A stretch of 64,000 bases of DNA. Origin: Echinarachnius parma. Its lineage: Eukaryota; Echinodermata; Echinoidea; Clypeasteroida; Echinarachniidae. Of the stretch, positions 4,635 through 49,730 are shown piece after piece. The notes beneath the pieces were generated by a model. It did not search any database. It saw only the letters and a list, made by a program, of their open reading frames with translations, and was not told the origin of the DNA. The translations under genes and the position numbers were made by a program. The stretch covers positions 1 through 64,000 of the forward strand of contig JBAMJV010011327.1 of assembly GCA_037951105.1 (NCBI GenBank). The letters are read 5' to 3'. Each line of letters starts with the position of its first letter. Positions within the stretch are counted from its first letter, which is position 1.

Positions 4635-7600
4635 CTGTTTAAAAGAGTTCACGCTAAAATTAATTAGTTTATTGATAGATTGATTGATATAAAATGGTTT
4701 ATGTCAATCTTGACTTTGGAATGCTATAGAGTTTGCAAATAACTGGGTAGGGTTTCTGCCTTGAAATTCAAGAATGTTCTGCTTAGTTCTCGGTTGCAAC
4801 TTTATTACTAGTCAACGATAATGGTTTTGAAGATGTGTGAAGAATTTCTTCTCCAAGTACTTCATAATTATTAGCTTTAATGTTTCTTTATCACTGGAGT
4901 AGATCTATACAGTCGGCTTGCGGTTGCACCATGTGAGAAGGGAAAATTGGAGAGTCCTGTGAAGGACTGTTGGTATTCTTTCTTGGGTATATAGTCCTAA
5001 AAAGGACTACGGTAGTCCAGGAAAGGACTGTTGTTTTCTTTCTTGAGCTTGAAGTTCTAAAAAGAACTACAGTGCTGGTATGAGTTATGGGTAAGGAGAG
5101 GATGGGTAGTAGGAGGGGCTCGACATTTCAAACAGGTTGACTGTCCGTCGTCAGGAGTGGGGTAGATCTGTGTGTAGTTTCTTTGGTTCAGGGGGGATGA
5201 TCTATTCATTCATTCCCCCCCCCCCCCCCCTCCCCCTGAACAAAAGAACTTTCCGCAAATATATTACACCAGTGTTCTTTACCTGTTTTTCTCCCACCAA
5301 TCCCAGCCATTCTTCCTTCTTCATGCGGTTGATCTCCCGAATGGCTTCATCCATCTCCACAACTCTCTTCCTGTTCGTCTTCTCTCTGTTCTCGTTCATG
5401 GATCCTCTGAACATAAATAATTCGATTCCAAACATAAAATAATAATAATAATAACATTATATATTTCTTTTTTTTAAAATTACAAATAACTTCAGTTCTT
5501 TACAATCGGCTTCATGCGGTTGATCTCCCGAATGGCTTCGTCCATCTCCTCAACTCTCTTCCTGTTCTTCTTCTCCCTGTTATTCTTCTCCCTGTTCTCA
5601 TTCATGGATCCTCTGAACAAATATAAGATGATTCAATTCCAAACATTATGTATTTTATTTTTGTAAATAACTTAATTTCTTTACAAATCGCTTCATGCGG
5701 TTGATCTTTTGAATGGCTTCGTCCATTTCTTCAACTCTCAATCTTCCTGTTCTTCCTCTCTCTCTGTTCTTGTTCATGTACCCTCTGAAATATTATCTAA
5801 TTTAAGATAATTGATAAGTATATTAAATGAAAAAAAAAAAGAAATAGGGTTTCCCTGGAATTCGAACCTAAGACCTCCGGATTGCTAAAACCGCTGCTCC
5901 ACCAACTGAGCTAGAAAAAGCCCCTGTGCTAGTGTTCGTCCGTTAAACCTTTTCAATATATGTTCATTAAACTGACACAAACTTGAAGGCTAAGAAATCA
6001 ACTTGGGAATATGTGCGAGGAATCACCAAAGTGATGCAGCTTTTTTGTATAAATTATTTCAAACATACAGAGACAAAAACCAACACAATTAGGGCCTTTT
6101 CTAGCTCAGTCGTAGAGCACCTGTCTAGCAATTCTGAGGTCTTGGGTTCGAATCCTGGGGAAACCGTACTTTTTTTTGTTCCCTTGGACTGGACGGTGCC
6201 GATCTCGTTGCTGACAAAGTTGTACGGAATCATGAAGTACGTTACAATCTAAAGGTTTCATACGTGATATGTAACGAGCTATGTGACCTAGCTTCACCTC
6301 CAATTCTATTATTCATTTTATGTGTGACTTACCGTTCAAGAATGCGGAAGCATTCAAGGTTCCTAGCCCTGGCACAACCCTTGGACTGGACAGAGTCAAT
6401 CTCATTGGTGGCTGACAAAGTTGTACGGAATTATGGAGTTATAAACTAAAAGTTACATAATGTGATATGTAATGAGCTCTGTAACCTAGCTTTCACCCCC
6501 AAGTCTATTATTCAGACCTACTTATTTAGACATATTTAGACTTACCGTTCAACGATGAGGAAGCATTCAGAGTTCCTAGCCCTGGCGCGTCCCTTGGACT
6601 GGACTGTCCCGATCTCGTTGCTGACAAAGTTGTACCGAATGATGAAATTACAAGCTGGCACGTCGAGTCCTTCCTGGACAATGTCCGTAGCAATGAGGAG
6701 GTTGGCTTGACCTACAAAACATATACCGATAAAAACTCAATTAACAGAGATTAAAAGTCAGTCAATCGATTAAAGTTAGTTGGCCTTTGTAGATTACTAT
6801 AGCAGTCCTCATAAATGTCTTATCTCCTCCTTTTTTTGCACATTTTTTGCAAAAGTGTGTTTTCTAAAGCTCACAAGAATATGTTTATAACATAATTATT
6901 ATATACATGTATATATATATATATATATATGCATGACGTTTTGAATGTGTTGAAAACAAGGAAATGCAGCATGCTACATTTATATGCTCCATATTGATCA
7001 GCTGTTGGCTGAAGTTCAACAATTGGAAAGCTTTATGAAACAGGGCCCTGGGGAGGTGTTGAATAAAGAGTTGCGATTAATCGCAAGTCAGAAAATATAG
7101 GCATCTAGGCCAATCAGATTTGCGTTTTGAGCATTTGATGACATAAATGGTACCCTGGGGTACCAAATGAAAATCTGCCATTTTGTTTAATTTTTTTTTT
7201 TTTTTTCAGGGCTGTACACTGGGATACCAAAGAATATGAAATTATTTTTGTATGCTTTATTAACGTTCAAAAAGCTCTCTTTTCGCCCGGGGCAGCGTGC
7301 ATACAAGCGCTGCATGCACGACGCAATACACCAGCGGCGTCCATGATTGCCCTGCGGTACGGTTGTACTTCGGGTGGACACAAGATGGCGCCACTCAACG
7401 CAGGATACCGGGGTACAACGGTACCCCGGGGTACTGCGCGTGTCATCATTTGCAGACTTGCGATTAATTGCAACTTTTGCGTTTGGTTGCAACTCTTTAT
7501 GCAATACCCCAAAATCTAATGATAATACATGTACGTATTAGGATATCTTATAATCTTATACCAACCTGTCCTGAACAGCTGCAGGGCTTCCTCCTGTTTG

Positions 7601-10600
7601 GACGTCGACTGAGCATCCTCAACCTCCTTCCCCTGCCCAACGATTCTTGTCGGTCTGATGCGACTCGCTGGATTGGTTCTAACTACGCTGTTCAAGATGA
7701 AATCCAGGAGCGCCAATGTTGCAAAACGGGTCCTGGCCAGGAGAATCCCTTTGATATACAAGTAGAGTGAACATAAAGCAAACACACCATAGACAATATG
7801 TTACCAGAGATGAATACATAATTTGTTATATACAATACACCTATTGGAAAACAGTAGCGGTAGTGTGATGCGACTCGCTGGATTCGTTCTAACGACGCTG
7901 TTCAAGATGAAATCCAAGAGCGCTAATGTTGCGAAACGCGTCCTGGCAAGGAGTACAAGAAGAATGAGCAGAAGAGCAAACACAACATAGACAATGTTAA
8001 ACAGAGATGAATAAATTTGTTATATACAATACACCTATTGGAAAACAGTAACTGTAGACTGATGCGACTCGCTGGATTCGTTCTAACGACGCTGTTCAAG
8101 ATGAAATCCAGGAGCGCCAATGTTGCAAAACGGATCCTGGCAAGGAGAATCCCTTTGATATACAAAGAGAATGAGCAAAAAAGTACACCATAGACAATGT
8201 TAACAGAGATGAATACATTTGTAATATACAATACACCTAATGGAAAACAGTAACTGTAGTATAGGAACTCTCTTAGTTATACAGGCTGTTTTGCCTTTTG
8301 AGGCTCTTCAGTAACTAAACTTGGGGACAGTGGTAAGAACATATATATGTACCCAGAGAGGGTGTATTAAAAAGATGTACATTTGTTATGTACAATTCAA
8401 CTCTAGAAGAACAATAATCAAAATCAATAAATACAAATCTTGTTCCCAAAAACTTAAGTGGAAGACAATTCTGTAAAGTCCCACCATTAACATTTAACAT
8501 ATTCTAAAAAGTTCCAGGTCATTGCAAGAAAAAAGCTTTAACAATCATAATAATAATCAACTTTTAGCCTAACAATTTACCTCTAGAATTAGGCTTCTCC
8601 CTAAAGGTTTTCTCCAGGAGGTCCACAAGGCGTTTGAGCTTTGGTATCGTCAGCGGTTGCTCCTCCTGGACGAGCCCCATCAGCTTGGGGATGAACCCCT
8701 GGTAGGTTTCTCGACACCACTTTCCACCCGCCGTCGCATCAAAATCTTCTACATTCTGCGTTATGAACGTTTCAAATGCGTGGAGGACGTATTTCGCCGG
8801 GAGGTCCTCGTACGCCATCAAAGACAGATTGAGTTTCAACAGGTAGGTCATGACTGCGCACCCATCCTTGTTTCCTTTTTTTCTCTCGTACGATGCCAGC
8901 GGTCCGATCCAGGTCAGGTACTCAGGAGATCCGTAGCAGCCGTTCGGGTTCCCCGGCTGCATCTGGGAGTGGCTTACAAGGTTGTGTCGCTTCTCGATGG
9001 CGTGCATGATCCGTGTCAAGATTTGAACCATCCTCGTGCTGACCTGGCAGGGTGCCCGCACAGGTGTAGAGAGAATCTCATCCTTCTCGGGAAGATTGTT
9101 GAATCTCTCCAGCTCTGCAAATGGTAAAGAGCAACAAATTGCAAAATTTTACGTTGGAACTATACTTGTGTTCTGCCATACGAGGGAGAAATAGCTTTAT
9201 ATGATTGTTGAAATCCTTCCCCAGGTGCCGATGGAATTAATTCTAGTTGTGGAGCAACTTCCAACTTATCTAAAAATACACACTTTCTGCTGGAATGTCA
9301 GTTGTTTTGTGATGCCTACAAATTCACCCGATGTTGGTGATTTCACTTTGAAAAATCAGGCATCAGGAAAATATGGGGAAAAGGTTCAATATCAGCAAAA
9401 TCGAATGCATTGGAGTGGCGATACTGGATGCATCGGAGTGCTGAACTGAAATGGCAGCACTAGTGCCGGTCCTGACAGAGCTACATAAACAGGTCTGACT
9501 ATACATTATATCAGTGGAACCACTTTATAAACAGCCCTGATAAATAACAAAGTAATCTTTCTGATCCCAGCCACTTATATTCTTTTGTATTTTCCCCCTT
9601 AAATTACAAGATATATACTTGATATAACATTGTATAAACTCCCATGGTCCCAAGGACCTCATTATAAAGAGGTTCCACTGTAATCTACACATGTTAATAC
9701 CTTTAACGTTTGATGGTTCGCTGACTGTCCTCACTCCCGAGCAGTCGAGGTTGGCGCAGAGGTTGACAATGTGGCAGACCGCATTACTTGCTCCTCCTGT
9801 TCCTAGTGATGCTGTGAGTCCTGCAAGCGGGTTGAATAAAACAAGTTGCTCCCTTAGTAAGTGTTTTATTAAATGTATTTACAATGTTTGACAGACTGAC
9901 TGTCTTGGCTCCTGAGCAGTAGAGGTTGGTGTAGAGGTTGACGATGTGGCAGACCGCATCACTTGCTCCTCCTGTTCCTAGTGATGCTGTGAGTCCTGCA
10001 AAAGGGTTGAATAGAACAAGTTGCTCCCTTAGTAAGTGTATTATTATATGATATCTTTAATGATTGACAGTTCAGCAACATTCTTCACTCCTGAGCAGTT
10101 GAGGTTGGCGCTGAGGCTGACGATGCATCAGACTGCATCACTAATTCCTCCTCGATCCTGTTCCTAGTGATGCTGTGAGTCCTGCAAAAGGGTTGAATAC
10201 AAAAAATCCTCCCTTATTATTATCTTATAGATATCATGAATGATTGACAGTTCAGCAACATTCTTCACTCCTGAGCGGTTGAGGTTGGCGCAGAGGCTGA
10301 CGATGCATCGGACTGCATCTCTAATTCCTCCTCGATCCTGTTGGTGCAGAGGCTGACGATGCATCAGACTGCATCACTTCCTCCTCGATCCTGTTCCTAT
10401 ATAGTGATGCTGCAAGTCCTGCAAACAAACCTTTCATAGTCAGAAACTTTCATAGTAGAAATATAAATGTTTGTAACTAAATTATATATATGTTTGTATA
10501 TATATATCTATTTATATATATTGAGGCGAGATTGATAGATGAACTAGACAAGCAGCTTGATTATTTCCTTTGAAAAAACAAATTGTGAAAGAAAATAATT

Positions 10601-11968
10601 AAGAAACTGGAAAAATCCTGAGGATTTTTGGTGGTTGAATCCTTTAGAACTAAAATATTTTCTTTGAGAGAAAAAGTTACGCTCCATACTAGCCGTCATT
10701 GATTAGTATAGTGAACACTATTCCAGCATACATGTAAATGATCATACTACCTATTTTCTCTAGCAGTTATGTAGCTTGTATGCAAATCAATAACAAAAAC
10801 AAGAAAATCTTTTTAAAAATAAAGAAATGCAGTATAAGAATGTTCCCCAAATAATTTGTTTGCGTCAACCCCCTCCCCCCTCCCTCTCAGGTCAACCACG
10901 GTACGCCACTGCTTAGCTAGAATAACTTTTTACATTGTTGTTATGGGTCTAGTAATTCAAAATACTAAGTCAATCACAATACCGACTATCTGTGGAAGAT
11001 CCCGGAAGGGCCGCCCGATCAACCAAGCTCCTCGCTTTTCCTCTTCCGCCTCGATCAGTCTCCTCTTCTCCCACATGTACTCCTTCATGATCTCGTTGTA
11101 CGAATGGCCCAGCGTCGTGTGGTGGCATTCGTCAAAGACCAGCATCGAAACCTCGTGGAAGTTGAAGCTCCCGTTGCGAAGCGCGTTGACCAGAATCTGA
11201 GCCGTAATCATCAGCACCTTGATGGACGGCTGGTCGAAGTTCCGCCTGAACTGTAGCGTCTTGGTGACAGCAGCCACTGCGCTAGGGTCAAAGACATCCC
11301 AGAATGCATCCCGCTGTTGGCCCTTCAGGTGACGTGTTGGGACGATGAAAAGAGCTGAAAATGACGGAGAAAGTCGACAAATGGTGTACATTAGTGTATT
11401 CACAGATGGATTATAGATGCATATATTAAAGATAAGGCTGTTTTGGTTAATTCAAGGAGTTAGCTGGCTAAGTTGAAATTTACATGTAGTTAATACAGTT
11501 TGCACTCTGCAGAGTTTGGCAATTAAGTAATGTACAATTTGGCATTAATGAATTATGAAAGACGATCTAATTTTGGTATAATGTGCGCAAATAAAGATGA
11601 TGTGCATTCTCCTGCCATATATAGTAATCAGTCCGACTATTTTAAAATCAAATTATCTCCTTTTTTTTGGGGGGGGGGGGGTGCATGTGTGTGCATCAGC
11701 CACCTTCAAAGAGAGGCGCTTGCTTCCCTGTGCATTTTCTGATCATTTTCGGGTTATTAAAGTCTATCGATAGATCTAACGGTTCTAACCTTTGAAGTGT
11801 TTGCCTTCTCGCCCCTCAGCTTCCCGCATCCGTTTGTAACAGAGGGCCGCTGCTGCCAGAGTCTTGCCCGAGCCGGTCGGGGCACAGATGATGTAGTTGT
11901 ACCCCCGCAGACCCGGAGTAATCAGCTCCTCTTGGTAACCCCTCAGCTGCTTCCTATGATGACTCATT
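4451..11968 (-). CDS. RLR gene B: LGP2-like DExD/H-box RNA helicase (8 exons, 3' end not found)
   Basis: Exons: 11967(or 11968)-11790, 11354-10983, 9820-9701, 9114-8581, 7748-7566, 6711-6546, 5406-5283 and 4634-4451. All have AG/GT borders and compatible phases, with no stop in about 620 codons. Superfamily 2 motifs appear in RLR order: I APTGSGKT, Ia PTRHLK, II DECH, III LTASLGTGG, the RLR-specific helical insert, V ATDIVQEGLDVP and VI QSKGRARA, then the linker and the first half of a C-terminal zinc domain (CRMC). Known family role: cytoplasmic dsRNA-stimulated ATPase that senses or tunes sensing of viral RNA. If a terminal exon of about 63 codons like that of gene A exists, total length is near 680 residues, the usual LGP2 size, and no CARD is seen. 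The first ATG (11967) has A at -3, but an acceptor ends one base before it, so upstream exons remain possible. Five of the eight exons have decayed tandem copies beside them. LGP2-like is inferred from architecture, not from a phylogeny. Confidence 0.88.
4913..5155. repeat. Half copy of the AGTCCT-palindrome element
   Basis: GCGGTTGCACCATGTGAGA, then GTCCTAAAAAGGACTAC-type palindromes, ending GTTGACTGTCCGTCGTCA. Matches the left and middle part of the full element at 16837-17326. It sits in the intron between gene B exons 7 and 8. Confidence 0.7.
5283..5406 (-). CDS. RLR gene B exon 7 (linker/pincer helix)
   Basis: 124 nt, encoding GSMNENREKTNRKRV, then MDEAIREINRMK and EEWLGLVGEKQ. Charged helical sequence as in the RLR pincer between helicase and C-terminal domain. 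Acceptor ATGTTCAG, donor ACAG|GTAAAG. Same length as gene A exon 5 (124 nt). Two truncated copies lie upstream. Confidence 0.82.
5507..5784 (-). pseudogene. Two truncated copies of RLR gene B exon 7
   Basis: Copies at 5612-5507 and 5784-5690 repeat the acceptor and the first about 33 codons (GSMNENRE... to AIREINRMK), without the exon's end or donor. The nearer copy has an extra short duplication of its AGGGAGAAGAA segment. The farther copy has diverged further. Flanks ATTCCAAACAT and CTTTACAATCGCTTC repeat as well; spacing is about 172-206 bp. Confidence 0.82.
5848..5935 (-). repeat. tRNA-like sequence (SINE head or tRNA remnant)
   Basis: On the minus strand CTAGCTCAGTTGGTGGAGCA (A box) and GGTTCGAATTCC (B box) lie at tRNA spacing. 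Stems are imperfect and it is embedded in an intron of gene B, so a tRNA-derived repeat is more likely than a working tRNA. Confidence 0.55.
6098..6172 (+). repeat. tRNA-like sequence inserted in an exon 6 copy
   Basis: CTAGCTCAGTCGTAGAGCA and GGGTTCGAATCC form A and B boxes with a plausible T arm. It truncates the decayed exon 6 copy at 6176-6240. Probably tRNA-derived. Confidence 0.55.
6176..6440 (-). pseudogene. Two decayed copies of RLR gene B exon 6
   Basis: The copy at about 6434-6327 resembles motif VI (VQSKGCARAR, with one conserved Arg changed to Cys) and keeps a donor-like GTAAGT. The copy at about 6240-6176 is cut by a tRNA-like insertion at 6098-6172. The flanking block (GTGATATGTAATGAGCTCTG-like) repeats with them, so the unit is about 200 bp and lies on the 3' side of the true exon. 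Confidence 0.8.
6546..6711 (-). CDS. RLR gene B exon 6 (motifs V and VI)
   Basis: 166 nt, encoding GQANLLIATDIVQEGLDVP (motif V), YNFVSNEIGTVQSKGRARA (motif VI with both conserved arginines) and CFLIVER. Acceptor TTTTGTAG, donor AACG|GTAAGT. The length equals the equivalent gene A exon (166 nt). Two decayed copies follow on the 3' side. Confidence 0.87.
6712..7565. other. Gene B intron 5, no coding signal
   Basis: (TA)n at about 6908-6932. TGGTACCCTGGGGTACCAAA and related GGTACCCCGGGGTAC palindromes at 7148-7450 suggest an unclassified inverted repeat. Confidence 0.5.
7566..7748 (-). CDS. RLR gene B exon 5 (motif IV region)
   Basis: 183 nt; starts GILLARTRFATLAL, then VGQGKEVEDAQST and KQEEALQLFRTG. 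Acceptor TATCAAAG is short of pyrimidines; donor ACAG|GTTGGT. Corresponds to the start of the second RecA lobe (the 'IIFTRTRQSA...' block of LGP2). Two truncated copies of its first half lie just upstream. Confidence 0.85.
7864..8152 (-). pseudogene. Two truncated copies of RLR gene B exon 5
   Basis: Copies at 8152-8058 and about 7955-7864 repeat LARxRFATLALLDFILNSVV to ASRI, then run into identical AT-rich sequence (ACTACAGTTACTGTTTTCC-like, minus strand). Each lacks the second half of the exon and its donor. The upstream one keeps the acceptor region. The intron flanks (AGAGATGAATACATTTGT) are repeated too, giving a unit of about 200 bp. Confidence 0.85.
8581..9114 (-). CDS. RLR gene B exon 4 (helical insert domain Hel2i)
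   Basis: 534 nt, beginning ELERFNNLPEKDEI and ending KPNSRG at donor AGAG|GTAAAT. It matches the alpha-helical insertion between the two RecA lobes that is special to RLR and Dicer helicases and contacts the dsRNA backbone. SPEYLTWIGPL, LLKLNLSLMAYEDL and PKLKRLVDLLEK follow the family pattern (compare LRRYNDALLI and NPKLEMLEKIL in LGP2). Confidence 0.87.
9513..9680. mobile_element. MITE, AGTGGAACC...GGTTCCACT ends
   Basis: 168 bp with inverted ends AGTGGAACCACTTTATAA and TTATAAAGAGGTTCCACT. It lies in intron 3 of gene B, next to the donor of exon 3. Related ends occur at 16074-16813 and 22190-22302. Confidence 0.72.
9701..9820 (-). CDS. RLR gene B exon 3 (motif III)
   Basis: Exon of 120 nt encoding GLTASLGTGGAS, then CHIVNLCANLDCSGVRTV. 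Acceptor GCTTGCAG, donor AAAG|GTATTA. This is the motif III segment that couples ATP hydrolysis to strand movement in superfamily 2 helicases. It is the only copy of a five-member local exon array that keeps both splice sites and an open frame. Confidence 0.86.
9885..10418 (-). pseudogene. Array of four decayed copies of RLR gene B exon 3
   Basis: Copies start near 9995, 10181, about 10345 and 10418 on the minus strand, repeating the motif III exon. The 9995 copy keeps GLTASLGTGGAS but has Cys to Tyr changes (NLYTNLYCSG) and no donor. The 10181 copy has an insertion after LGTG that shifts the frame, and its donor GT has become AT. The two distal copies are truncated into one another. Spacing is roughly 75-190 bp. 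None looks able to splice as an alternative exon. Confidence 0.85.
10983..11354 (-). CDS. RLR gene B exon 2 (motifs Ia-II)
   Basis: Acceptor ATTTTCAG; 372 nt. Encodes ALFIVPTRHLKGQQRDAF (motif Ia), MITAQILVNAL, motif II FDECHHT and YNEIMKEYM, and ends RDLPQIVG at donor GTATTG. In gene A the same protein segment is fused to motif I in one exon, so this gene has one more intron here. No degenerate copy was seen beside this exon. Confidence 0.88.
11790..11967 (-). CDS. RLR gene B exon 1 (helicase motif I)
   Basis: Starts [16 protein letters not shown] and carries the Walker A/motif I APTGSGKT, followed by a helix. The donor after CACTTCAAAG is GTTAGA (phase 1). Immediately upstream is CTGACAG, a possible acceptor, so the methionine is either the initiator (A at -3) or internal. 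LGP2 family members also begin almost directly at this helicase segment. Confidence 0.85.
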
Positions 11969-12133
11969 CTGTCAGGGTTATAGCTAATAATACAAAGGAA
12001 AATACTGTTGAAAACTGCTTACTTAGATCGGCTAAAAAAAATCATTGGTGTAATAAAATGAGAGATATAGTACAGAGCCTAGCTTTTGATCCCAGCTGGA
12101 TCTTCGCCGGGGCAAAAGTGACAATAAAAACAT

Positions 12134-12266
12134 GCTGCCAGAGTCTTGCCCGAGCCGGTCGGGGCACAGATGATGTAGTTGTAGCCCCGCAGACCCGGAG
12201 TAATCAGCTCCTCTTGGTAACCCCTCAGCTGCTTCCTATGATGACTCATTCTGTCAGGGTTCTACT
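12134..12266 (-). pseudogene. Truncated copy of RLR gene B exon 1
   Basis: Nearly identical to the acceptor end and first 43 codons of exon 1, through motif I (APTGSGKT and LAA). It then breaks into unrelated sequence at CTGGCAGC|ATG and has no donor. The copied block begins in the upstream intron or leader (CTGACAGAATGAG), so it is a genomic and not a retro-copied duplication. Very low divergence implies it is young. Confidence 0.85.
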
Positions 12267-12304
12267 AATTCTAGTTGAAAACTGCATGGTGGACAAAATA
12301 AATT

Positions 12305-12917
12305 AAACCTAATGGCCCGTATTCACAAAGGAGGTTTGTACAAACCCTGGTTCAAACCGCGGTTTACATCTTGTCGAAAAAACAGTTGAAAATTAGTTGC
12401 CAACTGGTAGGCCTACCAGTTGATACCACCAGTTGGCCAACTGGTTTCAATATGGAAATTGGTACACTGGAATCAACTGGAATCAATTGGAATCGAGTAA
12501 GAATCCAGTAAGGCTTACCAGTAAGAAGACCAGTTAAAGTAGTTGGTTCCAACTGGTATTTTGAATTGGTTTCAACTGGTATTTCTATTGGTTTTAACTG
12601 GACTGCTGCATCTATCCATTTATCTTTACTGGGAACCGGGAATGTAAACTGCTACCGCTTGATGCCAGTTAAAACCAGTAAAAACCAGTTGAATTTCCAA
12701 CTGGTTTCAACTGGTTTCAACTGGTTTCAACTTGTTTCAACTGTTTTTTCGACCTGGGAAGCTGTTGGAGAGAGAATGTAAATTCCTTACTTGTTAACAA
12801 TGTTGATGGTACACATTCTCTCTCCATCAGTTTACAATTGGCATTCCATAGATGTAAACCGCGGTTTGAACCGGGGTTTGTACAAACCTCCTTTGTGAAT
12901 ACGGGCCATTAGGTTTG
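12305..12917. mobile_element. Long-TIR element with internal AACTGG minisatellite
   Basis: Ends AACCTAATGGCCCGTATTCA and its complement enclose inverted arms of about 60 bp. GTTTGTACAAAC and AAACCGCGGTTT inside the arms are themselves palindromic. The middle is built of direct and inverted AACTGGTTTC/CCAGTTG units. No coding capacity. Confidence 0.82.
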
Positions 12918-32300: not shown

Positions 32301-35300
32301 CGACTCGTGCAATATGATCCTAGCGAATGCAATATTTCTGATATAACACTCAAGGCCAGTCAATATTATATAAATGTTCACTTTATCGTACATTAATATA
32401 AAATATTTCGAGTTATACAAGTGTCCAGTTTCTTTTTTTGCAGAGTATATATTCTCACTCATCCAGTCGAAGTAGATATAAACAAATTTATGCATTAAAT
32501 TCTGGACAAACTTATTTGTGTAAAGACCACCACCCTCCACTTTGAAGGGTTGCCAGAAGAAGCCAATAGACATCAGCGACGTCGCAATTACACAAGTATG
32601 TTTGTCCAGAATTTGATTCATAAATTTTTGATAAATTATGTTTAATATTTTGAACTTTTATCATAAACCATGTGCACCTTGTAATGGTAGACTTCCTGAG
32701 AAGGAATCATCTTTTTAATAATATTTTATCAGTATGGTGAAAATTAGCTTTGTGCACCCCGAGATTCATCCGCGGCCGGTGGAACTATGTTAATACATCC
32801 GCCATAGGTTATAAGTTATAACGTGTACATATGGTTGCCCCGCAGCTAGTATGCTCACTGGGGAGTTCAGAATGTGTGTACAAGATAATTGTGCGGGTCT
32901 GAACTGTACCAAATGACCAGGGATAATAATAAGTGCTTAGAGGCTGTTCTTCATTAGGCGCTATACAAATACGATCTATATTATTATTAATATTATTATG
33001 TTTGGGCCATAATCAAGATTTTTCAGTTTTTGGTCTGATGAACTACTGTAACACTAATCAATTTTTCACAGATTATTCCTCTTATTCTGCTAATCAATAT
33101 TTAAACCTGGCTTGGACTCCCACCGTCGGTCTATAATGGAGATCAATGCCTCACTTGTTGCTTAGCAACCTCCTGAAGTCACCCCCCCCCCCCCCCCCAT
33201 TATCAACATAAATCTCATTCACCAGTCCTAAAACATGGCAGCCAGTAGACGCTGACCATCAATCCACAAATACTGGTAATCAGTAACTCCCCTGTCACTT
33301 AGCAACCTCCCGAAGCCACACCTCCCTACCCAGACTGTCAGCAACTTGAATCATATTCACCACTGCCCTGAAACATGGCAGCCAGTAACTTCAGTGACTA
33401 GACGCTGACCATCATTCCAAGAATATTCCAGATCAGTGACTCGCTTGTCGCTCACTAGCAACCCACTGAAGCCACACCTACCTGCCCATACTGTCAGCAA
33501 CTTGAATCACATTCACCACTGAAACATGGCAGCCAGTAGCTTCAGTAACTAAATGCTGACCATCATTCCAAGAATATTCCAGATCAGTGACTCACTTGTC
33601 GCTCACTAGCAACCCACTGAAGCCACACCTACCTGCCCATACTGTCAGCAACTTGAATCACATTCACCACTGCCCTGAAACATAGCAGCCAGTAACTTCA
33701 GTGACTAGACGCTGACCATCATTCCAAGAATATTCCAGATCAGTGACTCGCTTGTCGCTCACTAGCAACCCACTGAAGCCACACCTACCTGCCCATACTG
33801 TCAGCAACTTGAATCATATTCACCACTGCCCTGAAACATGGCAGCCAGTAACTTCAGTAACTAGACGCTGACCATCATTCCAAGAATATTCCAGATCAGT
33901 GACTCACTTGTCGCTCACTAGCACCCCACCGAAGCCACACCTACCTGCCCATACTGTCAGCAACTTGAATCACATTCACCACTGCCCTGAAACATGGCAG
34001 CCAGTAGCTTCAGTAACTAAACGCTGACCATCATTCCAAGAATATTTGCAATCAGTGACTCACTCGTCGCTCACTAGCAACCCACTGAAGCCACACCTAC
34101 CTGCCCAGACTGTCAGCAACTTGAATCACATTCACCACTGAAACATGGCAGCCAGTAGCTTCAGTAACTAAATGCTGACCATCATTCCAAGAATATTCGC
34201 AATCAGTGACTCACTCGTCGCTCACTAGCAAGCCACTAAAGCCACACCTACCTGCCAGCAACTTGAATCACATTCACCTCTGTCCTAAAACATGGCAACC
34301 GATGACTTCAGGGACTAGAGCTTAACCATAAATCCAGTATAGTAGTATAGATCAGTAACTCACCTGTTGCTTCTTAACCTCCTCAAGCCACACCTCCCTG
34401 TCCATATGGTTGGCAACTTCAATCGCTTCGGCCATCTTTACCACCCTATCACGATTCTTGAACTCCCTGGATTCATTCAAAGATCCACTGAAAATAGAAA
34501 TAAATGAAGAAAAAATATTGCTGAAAACTGCTAAATCTACTTAAAAATTGCCATTGTAATAAAACAAGAGTACCGTAAAACTCTGTGTATAAGACGCACT
34601 TTTTTTCCGTCGGAAAATTTGCAAAGTGGGGGATGCGTCTTATACACAGGGGGGACACCTTGTAGTCATGTTGAATGTGTATAACACATGGTTTAGGGTA
34701 TGACAAGAACTTACAGTCAGTTGTAGCATTCAGCTAAATATACCTTTTTCTCACACAAAAAATATTGGTTACAGATGTAAAAATTGCAAGTTTATTGAGC
34801 AGTAATACTGCTGCTAATGAATATTCATACATTCGTGAGCAGCAGTACTAATTAAATATGCAATTTTCTAACCAGTGGTTATAAATTTTGCTTATAATTA
34901 AAATTAGTTAGTAGTAAATTTAGAAAATTGCATTATATTTAGTGAGTATTGGTGCTCATGAATATTCATGAATATGAATATGAATATTTATGAGCACCTG
35001 TGTTACTGCTAAATAAATGTGCAATTTGTGTACTAACCACTATTTTTATGTGAGAAAATTATTGATGAATGCTACATTCAAAATTAAGCTTTTGTCATGC
35101 CCTAGACCAGTGGTATAAGCATTCCAACAGCACTTCAGGGTAAAAAAAATAAAAATACAGGGTGTCCCCCCCCCCTTTCTGTGAAAGTTGGGGGTGCGTT
35201 TTATACACGAGTGCGTCTTATACACGGAGGTTTACGGTAAATAGAGCTTTCTATCATAACAGAATCTTTGTCAGGCAAAAATGACCTAGAAAAGAGAGAT

Positions 35301-38300: not shown

Positions 38301-41300
38301 ATGCGGGAACTTGTCCGCGTTGGGATCTTTGTCCGTGTAGAGATGATCTCATCTTCTTCTGGAGGTCTGTTCAATTCCTTCAACTCAGCAACATTTTGGG
38401 GCTTGGTCACCACCTTTACCCCAAAGCAATCCAGATTGGCACAGAGCACAACTAGGTGACCATGCGCATCATCAGACGTTCCCGTTCCAATGGAAGCTGT
38501 CAAACCTTGTATCAAACAAAAGAAAACAGAAATACAATCAAACTTGACATTTACCACATAATCAAATATTATCCAAGTGATTTTTATTAAATATGGGTCA
38601 GTTGTATTGTATGCATGTATTGTGTACCCTAAACGATCTGCAAAATTGAACACAGCAATAATATACCTAATAAACATTGTATGTCAACACTAAAAATGAT
38701 TGGCTTAAATATAGAGTGAGTTAGGAAGAGGAGTTTCAATGCCCACACTCCCATGGCCCACACGGTGTAAAAAGAAAGATTACAATTTCTTATCTAAGCT
38801 GCCCTACAACGGGAAACTCATCTCCCTTGTACTGCACAAACAGAAATATAACGATCACTTACCAAGTACTTGAGGGAGTCCTCTAGTTGGACGTCCAATG
38901 GGCCATGATGACATCTCTTCAGCATAAAGCGCTTTCTTCTCCCTCAGGTACTGCTTCATGATCTCATTGTAAGGGTGGTTGAGGGTTGTGTGGTGGGCCT
39001 CATCAAAGACCAGCATAGATGCATCAGACATCTTAAACTGCTTCTGGGCAATTGCATTGACAAGGACCTGTGCTGTGATCATCAAGATTCTAATATTGCC
39101 TTTGGAGAAGACATCGCTGAATATCTCGCCTTCTCCGAGGGAAGCGACTTGCCCTGGTTGGAAGAGGTCATTGAAGGCATCTCTCTGCTGCTTCTTCAGA
39201 TGTCGGGTAGGGACAATAAAGATTCCTTTGAAGGACCTTTGGGGTCCCATTTTCTTCATTCTTTCGTAGCAGATTTGTGCAGCAGTTATGGTTTTTCCAG
39301 ACCCAGTTGGAGCACAGATGACATAGTTCCACCCCTTCACACCAGGATCTGCAAGCTCCTTTTGGTATTCTCTCAATTTCACTGACTTCTTGTCATCAAC
39401 CTTCGGGTTAAAATCAAGAGTTGGATATACATCTTCTTTCTGGGTGCTGGTCACTGCAATTGCCACGTCATCGTTATCGAAATGTGCTTTCTCTCTCTCT
39501 GTAGATGACGAGTCTTTGACAACATCTGCACTGAGCCCAACAAACTCAACTTCTTTGTCAAGTTTGGCTTGATCTATTCCTTTACTTTTTGAGTTGTTGT
39601 CTGATGGCCCACAATCTTTCACTGTGTCTTGCTGTCCAAGAGAGAAGGGCTTGACCAAGTCTTCAACTTGAGACAAACTCATGTCTTCCAGTTGGTCACT
39701 GCCGTGCCCAGGGGTAGAAGAGGGTTGAACTTGATGCTCTAAAGGAAGTTGTGATACTACATCTTTGTTGCGAGTGGAGGCATCATGGGTATGCAGAGAT
39801 CCAGCTCCACTGATAATAGAACCTGTATGTGGCTGATTTTGTTCCTGGCTACCCGGCTGCAAGTTCTGTCCACCACTGCAGATATTGGAAGTTGTGCGGG
39901 GCGGCTCAGCACTCTTGAGGCAATGACTAGTTTGAGCAGAGACATCAACTGCCCTCATAGATCCAGTCACACTCAAGATTGAACCTGTATGTGGCTGACT
40001 TTGCTCCTGGCTACCTGATGGCGAGTTCTGTCCACCACTGAAGACATTGGAAGTTGTGCGGAGTGGCTCGGTGCTCTTGAGGCCCAAACTAGTCTCAGCA
40101 GAGACATCATCAGCTTTCAGAGATCCAGCGGAACTTACGGTTGAACCTGTATGTGGCTGATTTTGTCCCTGGCTACCTGGCTGCGAGTTCTGTCCGCCAC
40201 TGAAGATATTAGAAGTTGTGCGGAGCTGCTCGGTGCTCTTGAGGCCCAAACTAGTCGCAGCAGAGACAACATCGCCTTTCAGAGATCCGGCGGAACTTAC
40301 GATTGAACCTGTATGTGGCTGATTTTGTCCCTGGTTACCTGGCTGCGAGTTCTGTCCGCCACTGAAGATATTGGAAGTCGTGCGGAGCGGCTCGGAGCTC
40401 TTGAGGGCATGACTAGTCTGACTTGTGGCTGAACTTCCATTCCCTTGAGCAGATGCAGGCTGGAAAGCTATTCCTGTTGGGTAATCAGCTGGTGGAAGTT
40501 GGTGTGTGCTTCTACCAGCATTCATAGATGGGTCAGTCTGCTTTTCAACTCCAGTTGCTGCAGGACTTCTATCACTTGGAGTAGGCTTAGAAATGCCTTG
40601 AGCTGATGCAGGCTGCACAGCATACCCTGTTGGGTAACCAGCAGGAGGAGGCTCACTCCTGACACCAGCTGCTATTGGAACTTGATTTCCGTTATTGGGA
40701 GTAGGCAGCACAATTCCTTGTGCAGATTCCGGCTGCACAGGGATTCCACTCTGATTGGGCGGTACAAGAACTGCCTTAGAATGACTGGTATTTCTATGAG
40801 GTTCATTGCTCTTCAGAGACGAGTGTGAACTGATCAGGGATCTGGAGTTTGGTTGCTGCAAAGGATCTTCTGGCACTTGCTGGTTTAGGAAGTGTGCTCG
40901 CATCTCACTACTAGCTGTTGGTAATGGTTCTTTGGTTGTCAGCTCAAAGCTCTGGTCTGAAATCCCTTGCACATAACCAGATCCTGCTGGAGAAACTGCC
41001 TCTGGGCTGCTGGTAACCTTTGGTGGATGAAAATCCTGTTGAGGAGTTTGAGGTCCACCACGATTGGTTTGCAGCTGACCTTGTAGACCATGACCTTCTG
41101 AATGACCTTTTGGTTGACTTTGATGATGTGAAGATTGCAAACCTGGAACTGTTGGGTCTGCTGAAGTTATTGGTGGACTCTGCTCTGGATAATTCAAGCC
41201 TCGATACATAGGGCTGAGAGGATTAGCGGTAGCTCCTTGTGGACTGTTGGTAACTGTTTGGAGCTGGACGGATCCAGGAAGGCTTTGTGGCGACTGCGAC

Positions 41301-48756: not shown

Positions 48757-48879
48757 TCTTGAATATTTAAATAAGAACACTAAATATTAGTGAGAGTGAC
48801 AATTTTTTGAATTTTAATTGAAAAAAATAAAATCTTACAAACGGCTTACAGTGCAGAAGGCCGGTACAATGAGCCCCCC

Positions 48880-49730
48880 CCCCCCCCCCCCCCCTCCCCC
48901 AAAGACACCTCAGAGACTTCTGCAAACAAACACAGTGTTAGGGAGGTCACCTGTCTACAGTGGCCACATTTAATGTTTTTCTTAGATGGTCACTAAACAC
49001 AAGTATGTCTGTATTAGCCGAGGTGAACAATGAGTCCCCCCCCCCCCCCCCCCCACCACCCCAAAGAAACCTCAGATACTTTTTGCACAGAAACACAGTG
49101 TTAGGGAGGTCACCTGTCTACAGTGGCCACATTTAATGTTTTTCTTAGATGGTCACTAAACACAAGTATGTCTGTATTAGCCGAGGTGAAGAGTGAGTCC
49201 TCCCCTCCCCCCTCCCCCTCCCCCCCCCCCCTCAAAGACACCTCAGAGACATTTGTAAAGAAACGCAGTGTTAGGGAGGTCACCTGTCTACAGTGGCCAC
49301 ATTTAATGTTTTTCTTAGATGGTCACTAAACACAAGTGTGTCTGTATTAGCCGAGGTGAACAATGAGTCCTCCCCCCCCCCCCCCCCCCTCCCCCAAAGA
49401 CACCTCAGAGACTTCTGCAAACAAACACAGTGTTAGGGAGGTCACCTGTCTACAGTGGCCACATTTCATATTTTTTGTAGATAGTCGCTAGAAACACAAG
49501 TTTGTCTGTATTAGCCAATGTGAACAATGAGTCCCCCCCTCCCCCCCCCCCCCCCCCCCTCCCCCTCAAAGACACCTCAGAGACTTCTGCAAACAAACAC
49601 AGTGTTAGGGAGGTCACCTGTCTACAGTGGCCACATTTAATGTTTTTCTTAGATGGTCACTAAACACAAGTATGTCTGTATTAGCCGAGGTGAAACAGTG
49701 AGTCTTTCCCTTCCCTCAAAAAGACTCCTG
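48880..49730. repeat. ~165-bp tandem array with poly-C tracts
   Basis: Five copies of GTTAGGGAGGTCACCTGTCT at 48937, 49101, 49269, 49432 and 49604 (163-172 bp apart), each with CAGTGGCCACATTT, ATGTCTGTATTAGCC and a 15-30-base C run. It lies upstream of the first FDXR exon seen; no coding homology recognised. Confidence 0.88.

Follow-up and report, generated by a model that had tools for sequence, protein, structure and literature searches.

Why are five of the eight exons of a single helicase gene accompanied by broken copies of themselves? The gene, here called gene B, resembles the RIG-I-like receptors (RLR) and lies in a 64,000-nucleotide stretch of the echinoid Echinarachnius parma (positions 1 to 64,000 of contig JBAMJV010011327.1, forward strand; hereafter the window). 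A contig of the assembly that bears COX1 and COX2 looks like that of an echinoderm: COX1 includes TGA codons, and with translation table 9 AGA stands at serine positions and ATA at isoleucine positions, and the two stretches have only five AAA codons. A preliminary description of this DNA had offered two explanations, a local duplication process or past selection for exon diversification in an immune receptor. Here, we provide evidence from a self-comparison of the window for direct repeats and from contig searches of the 1.2 Gb assembly (14,790 contigs) that the copies are probably relics of common small local duplications, which sometimes caught the edge of an exon and then decayed. Duplications of the type seen in gene B are common in the sampled DNA of this genome, and the pattern requires no selection except for keeping one working exon. 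The five intact exons and their copies are as follows:

11790..11968, minus strand: exon 1 of gene B, intact (179 nt; helicase start with motif I; AG/GTTAGA flanks; tblastn)
12133..12269, minus strand: exon 1 copy, the first 118 of 179 nt plus the acceptor, exon part 99% identical (self-comparison, alignment)
9701..9820, minus strand: exon 3 of gene B, intact (120 nt; AG/GTATTA flanks)
9896..10425, minus strand: four exon 3 copies at 9896-9997, 10082-10183, 10262-10347 and 10340-10420 (self-comparison, parent alignment)
7566..7748, minus strand: exon 5 of gene B, intact (183 nt; AG/GTTGGT flanks)
7863..8260, minus strand: two exon 5 copies at 7866-7953 and 8059-8156, only the first 94-96 nt, without donor (self-comparison, parent alignment)
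6546..6711, minus strand: exon 6 of gene B, intact (166 nt; AG/GTAAGT flanks)
6180..6514, minus strand: two exon 6 copies at 6180-6236 and 6347-6435, on the gene-3' side, without acceptor (self-comparison, parent alignment)
5283..5406, minus strand: exon 7 of gene B, intact (124 nt; AG/GTAAAG flanks)
5510..5789, minus strand: two exon 7 copies at 5510-5619 and 5691-5789, the first 88 of 124 nt, without donor (self-comparison, parent alignment)

As first described, direct repeats were found at exons 1, 3, 5, 6 and 7, and the 11 local copies in the window (one at exon 1, four at exon 3, two each at exons 5, 6 and 7) lie on the gene-5' side of exons 1, 3, 5 and 7 and on the gene-3' side of exon 6. 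The reported unit of 180-210 bp fits the direct-repeat offsets at exons 5, 6 and 7 (210, 197 and 191 bp) and comes close at exon 3 (175 bp), but not at exon 1 (282 bp). Similarly, the copies of exons 1, 5, 6 and 7 are truncated as claimed, while several exon 3 copies extend past the donor. Exons 2, 4 and 8 had no copies in the direct-repeat analysis. A protein search of the window placed second matches beside all five copied exons, and no array arose when the 7.9 kb of gene B were simulated 50 times with an order-2 Markov model.

Could any of the copies serve as an exon? The same gene is present on three further contigs (C13611, C316 and C3486; the window is C11305), and the 48 non-parent copies on the four contigs were each aligned to the parent exon found on the same contig. 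The exon parts are 71-99% identical to the parent. None of the 48 offers an acceptor and a donor together with an open and compatible frame, and the alternative-exon reading is rejected by this check. Although the acceptor AG is kept in 34 of the 48, the alignments of 46 have no AG at the acceptor place or no GT at the donor place. The remaining two are exon 3 copies of C13611, one of which would yield an exon of 113 nt instead of 120 and thus a frame shift, and the other of which contains a frameshift and a stop. The claim that exactly one copy per exon retains both splice sites and the frame therefore stands, with an aligned AG and GT in none of the 11 window copies. Among these, the first exon 3 copy, at 9896-9997, keeps its acceptor and an open frame, with GTAAAT as a possible donor; splicing there would give 113 nt rather than 120 and shift the frame. 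Two window copies of exon 3 reach the place of the donor and read AT there, and insertions and frameshifts are present. Over the four contigs the donor is AT in eight of 17 exon 3 copies, and many carry a 7-nt insertion. The exon 5 copy at 7866-7953 has lost its acceptor as well as its donor.

Within each array the copies share a uniform edge, as would be expected if every array went back to a single founding breakpoint. The end lies at nt 88 of 124 in all 15 copies of exon 7, at nt 94-96 of 183 in all six of exon 5 and at nt 118 of 179 in both of exon 1, and the eight copies of exon 6 all start at nt 55 of 166. At exons 5, 6 and 7 the locally repeated unit comprises one intron-exon boundary with flanking intron; exon 1 was copied as part of an insertion with extra sequence, and the exon 3 units contain both exon boundaries. 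These features suggest the following course. Founding events may have been break repair or replication errors, after which units would have been gained and lost by unequal exchange or slippage. For exons 1, 5, 6 and 7, one end of the duplicated unit falls inside the exon, which leaves a single whole exon and truncates every other copy at the same edge. A unit that includes the acceptor side places the copies upstream (exons 1, 5 and 7), and one that includes the donor side places them downstream (exon 6). Exon 3 was copied in full, and its extra copies were inactivated by change of the donor GT to AT, the 7-nt insertion and frameshifts. If units were placed at random, ~10% of those that touch an exon would be expected to include all of it; here exon 3 is the one case in five. 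Cut copies would be tolerated, as they could not be spliced in as complete exons. The other proposal, past selection for diversified exons, finds no support, given that no copy is usable and that the lone intact copy is set by breakpoint position for four of the exons.

A comparable event is described for an RdRp gene of potato, in which a tandem duplication of genomic DNA spanning an intron-exon boundary was accompanied by a new intron (PMC4974935). The likeness is a duplication that crosses the boundary and adds a second, partial exon copy with splicing signals; the potato case differs in the new intron that was detected there, and gene B has arrays of varying length at five exons. Break repair by Pol alpha-primase/CST is known to generate small tandem duplications in animal cells (PMC8355091). 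It is a plausible source of the founding events. The exon 1 insertion with its added sequence, however, looks more like a templated insertion.

Is gene B unusually rich in such arrays? We defined an array by direct repeats at an offset of 80-1000 bp with at least 60 aligned bases and E at most 1e-8. By this rule there are five arrays in the 7.9 kb of gene B, 19 in the remaining 56.1 kb of the window (17.8% of bases), and nine in the 30 kb of six 5-kb regions on other contigs (1, 3, 1, 0, 3 and 1; 20.0% of bases). Array density in the latter two is comparable at ~3 per 10 kb. The Poisson probability of at least five arrays in gene B is 0.13 relative to the rest of the window and 0.09 relative to the other contigs; the count is not clearly above background. 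In 30 of 33 arrays examined the smallest offset was 111-333 bp (overall 111 to 966, median 193; 17 of 33 in 140-220). One nucleosome as the unit was rejected, there being no sharp period among these 33 offsets. The local duplication process that had been suggested is thus supported but is not special to gene B, as the 19 and nine arrays elsewhere attest. That repeated duplication at so many exons is unusual does not hold for the count, but the contact of all five arrays with exons is modestly unusual (see below). A striking pattern within one gene can arise from background tandem duplications, which make up roughly a fifth of the sampled sequence, together with the geometry of splicing. A further long array of the window, with periods of ~161-170 and 333 bp, is located at 48866-49715.

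Several observations weigh against so general an explanation. That such arrays are widespread is concluded from a small sample, i.e., one window and six 5-kb regions. All five units touch an exon by at least 40 nt, which has a probability of 0.006 under random placement in the gene (post hoc). Better detectability of conserved exons is not a full explanation for this contact, because masking of the parent exons leaves four of the five arrays detectable and additional masking of the exon-derived copy parts leaves three. At the protein level, a nearby copy was found at nine of 32 gene B exon clusters, as compared with two of 82 in a profile search for the myosin head (65 of 273 candidates scored) and six of 81 in one for SNF2 (124 of 124 scored; two of the six are an apparent allele pair). 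The comparison is uneven, with the own protein of gene B as the more sensitive query, four contigs that are dependent, and a gene that was picked for the feature; its clusters were counted from 44 of 79 search matches, leaving out 35 rows of other RLR genes. None of 13 other RLR exon loci had an array on the matched exon stretch (nine from other places, some of them near-duplicates, and four from the second RLR gene of the window and its counterpart). Finally, the exon 1 copy is not simply head to tail, as its insertion includes ~100 bp of extra sequence. The association of arrays with exons is a modest unexplained remainder. Separately, four myosin exon matches on contig C2768 occur twice with the same scores, ~90 kb apart, which is a recent duplication or an assembly effect.

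The contact of all five arrays with exons would also be expected if exons were true duplication hotspots, e.g., through base composition or chromatin. Consistent with an influence of composition, the exons of gene B are GC-rich (0.53), and arrays outside the gene have a GC content of 0.398 as compared with 0.383 in random pieces (p = 0.07). This effect, however, is small and not significant, making base composition a weak candidate for the cause of the exon overlap. Copies were found at few of the myosin and SNF2 exon clusters (8 of 163), and the 13 other RLR exon loci lacked an array on the matched stretch. We therefore consider hotspots rather unlikely.

Comparison of the four gene copies bears on how the arrays change. 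Long aligned stretches are ~95-98% identical, and some are less similar (~89% over 1.8 kb in C3486). The four copies are mosaics whose closest pairs switch along the gene. Because several control genes, as judged by eye, come as near-identical pairs of contigs (e.g., C902/C3472, C3384/C6793 and C1854/C99), we suggest that the four represent two loci with two haplotypes each. Arrays at exons 3, 6 and 7 are present on all four contigs, at exon 5 on three and at exon 1 on two. Including the parent, unit numbers at exons 1/3/5/6/7 are 2/5/3/3/3 in the window, 2/5/3/3/4 in C13611, 1/5/3/3/6 in C316 and 1/6/1/3/6 in C3486, i.e., exon 5 copies are absent from C3486, and exon 7 has three copies in C13611 and five each in C316 and C3486. 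Since these numbers differ among the contigs, the arrays turn over, on a time scale of a few percent divergence. In the exon 1 region, C316 and C3486 align continuously without a copy, and the window and C13611 contain an insertion of roughly 230 bp that, as read from the alignment, combines the exon 1 piece with ~100 bp of other DNA and sits at a short CTA match. Alternatively, C316 and C3486 may have undergone a deletion. At 12305-12916 the window also harbors an element with 67-bp inverted ends (98.5% alike); from the alignment, it appears to be shorter in C13611 and to be missing from this position in C316 and C3486.

It is intriguing to propose that the decayed copies act as donors, with unequal exchange or gene conversion returning sequence to the shared part of the working exon. 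A comparison of the window with C3486 gives 12 differences in the 411 copy-covered nt of exons 1, 5, 6 and 7 and none in the 241 uncovered nt of these exons (Fisher p = 0.005), and 8 of 14 alternative parent bases of exons 5 and 7 were found among the copies, compared with 21 of 504 at parent-invariant sites. However, this is one contig pair of six and was picked after the data had been seen, exon 3 was left out for want of an uncovered part, and all 12 differences derive from exons 5 and 7. Shared ancestry predicts the same sharing wherever every copy has the presumed older base, as at site 57 of exon 7 (15 of 15). The upstream intron of exon 5 in C3486 fits no unit well and is therefore not a simple product of contraction. 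For the same contig pair, the ratio of nonsynonymous to synonymous differences (pN/pS) reaches 0.20 for exon 5 and 0.15 for exon 7. Taken together, donor activity appears unlikely. In its stronger form, the cut copies would be a local archive: having one splice site and a portion of the exon in common with the working copy, they would allow unequal exchange to swap that portion in frame, and turnover of the arrays would thereby blend older with newer sequence in an antiviral sensor, a proposal that we regard as more doubtful still.

A further idea is that the arrays supply an immune receptor with reserve or alternative exons, either selected during splicing or maintained to diversify the exons. 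Gene B is a RIG-I/MDA5-like helicase gene on the minus strand with eight exons, whose joined frames extend over 4.4-12.0 kb. Its protein exceeds the Pfam cut-offs for DEAD (71.5 bits, cut-off 26), Helicase_C (45.8 bits, cut-off 23.5) and ResIII, and scores just under that for RIG-I_C (23.0 bits, cut-off 23.2). The top structure match is MDA5 (6g19, E 2.3e-61), and the solved structures nearest to the two helicase halves are MDA5, RIG-I and LGP2, a likeness to the RIG-I-like receptors. A C-terminal RNA-binding domain with zinc cysteines is not among the five Pfam families listed for gene B; a CxxC in exon 8 is the sole sign of such a domain. RIG-I and MDA5 possess N-terminal CARDs and LGP2 does not. 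RIG-I-like receptors are reported as expanded in the sea urchin S. purpuratus (PMC8998645).

The likeness to this receptor family, the acceptor AG retained by most copies and the one exon 3 copy with an open frame are in accordance with alternative exons. Yet none of the 48 copies could be spliced in frame, similar arrays occur on other contigs, and the profile searches found copies in non-immune genes. In addition, the whole-exon differences among the four gene copies are greatest in exons that have no copies: mean divergence is highest in exon 4, in which 13 to 45 of 537 nt differ, and exon 8 is close behind. Alternative exons are accordingly very unlikely. The exons without copies are:

10985..11353, minus strand: exon 2 of gene B (limits approximate), no copies found (self-comparison, protein search)
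8581..9117, minus strand: exon 4 of gene B, no copies found, strongly variable among the four gene copies (self-comparison, contig comparison)
4452..4639, minus strand: exon 8 of gene B (limits approximate), no copies found (self-comparison, protein search)

The amino-acid changes in exon 4 are clustered around SYERKK/SKARAK/SYDRQK, with pairwise pN/pS of 0.09-0.27.

Working copies of mutually exclusive exons, of which Dscam is an example, require both splice sites, phase and frame. Gene B shares with tandem duplicated mutually exclusive exons (PMC9741552) the presence of local exon copies inside one gene, but none of its 48 copies has all of these. The SpTransformer (Sp185/333) immune genes of sea urchins are likewise rich in repeats and differ structurally between gene copies; there, however, duplication and deletion affect entire genes next to short tandem repeats and the family is reported to lack pseudogenes (PMC5103432), whereas gene B has dead exon pieces within its introns. 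Among the literature matches listed, titles and abstract beginnings describe no such exon arrays in echinoderm RLR genes, which is no proof of absence.

An origin as assembly artefact or dispersed repeats is extremely improbable: the assembly does contain four near-identical versions of the locus, but the arrays recur on separate contigs with differing unit numbers and their copies have diverged from the parents (71-99% identity), by which haplotype collapse is rejected, and the exon-derived stretches of 5507-6500 match the four gene B contigs only (40 of 3228 candidates scored), by which dispersed repeats, likewise named beforehand as a possible refutation, are rejected for the exon 6 and exon 7 copies that this query covers. 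Its remaining matches fall in one element, at which the outer exon 6 copy stops:

5829..6181, strand not assigned: tRNA-like dispersed element with inverted repeats, lying between the arrays of exons 7 and 6, not derived from an exon (self-comparison, genome matches)

The arms of its inverted ends are 80% identical, and it has matches on many other contigs at ~70-91%. ARAGORN reports part of it as a tRNA of unclear type, and Rfam at gathering score gave no listing.

If the copies are relics of background duplication and decay, exon relics in immune genes should not be read as diversity systems, and annotators of gene B should beware of false extra exons from protein searches. Genomes of this kind are useful for watching the origin of exon pieces, new introns and coding repeats.

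Another RLR gene of the window, a paralog of gene B, occupies about 34.4-41.5 kb. The homolog of exon 7 in this gene (34364-34480) forms the edge of an array at 33133-34424 with a unit of ~156 bp, and the units, as read by eye, retain the exon end and the donor; this paralog shows the same array geometry as the exons of gene B, in favor of the relic reading. Its long N-terminal exon contains an array at 39777-40421 with about four copies of a 162-bp unit, which corresponds to 54 residues in frame.

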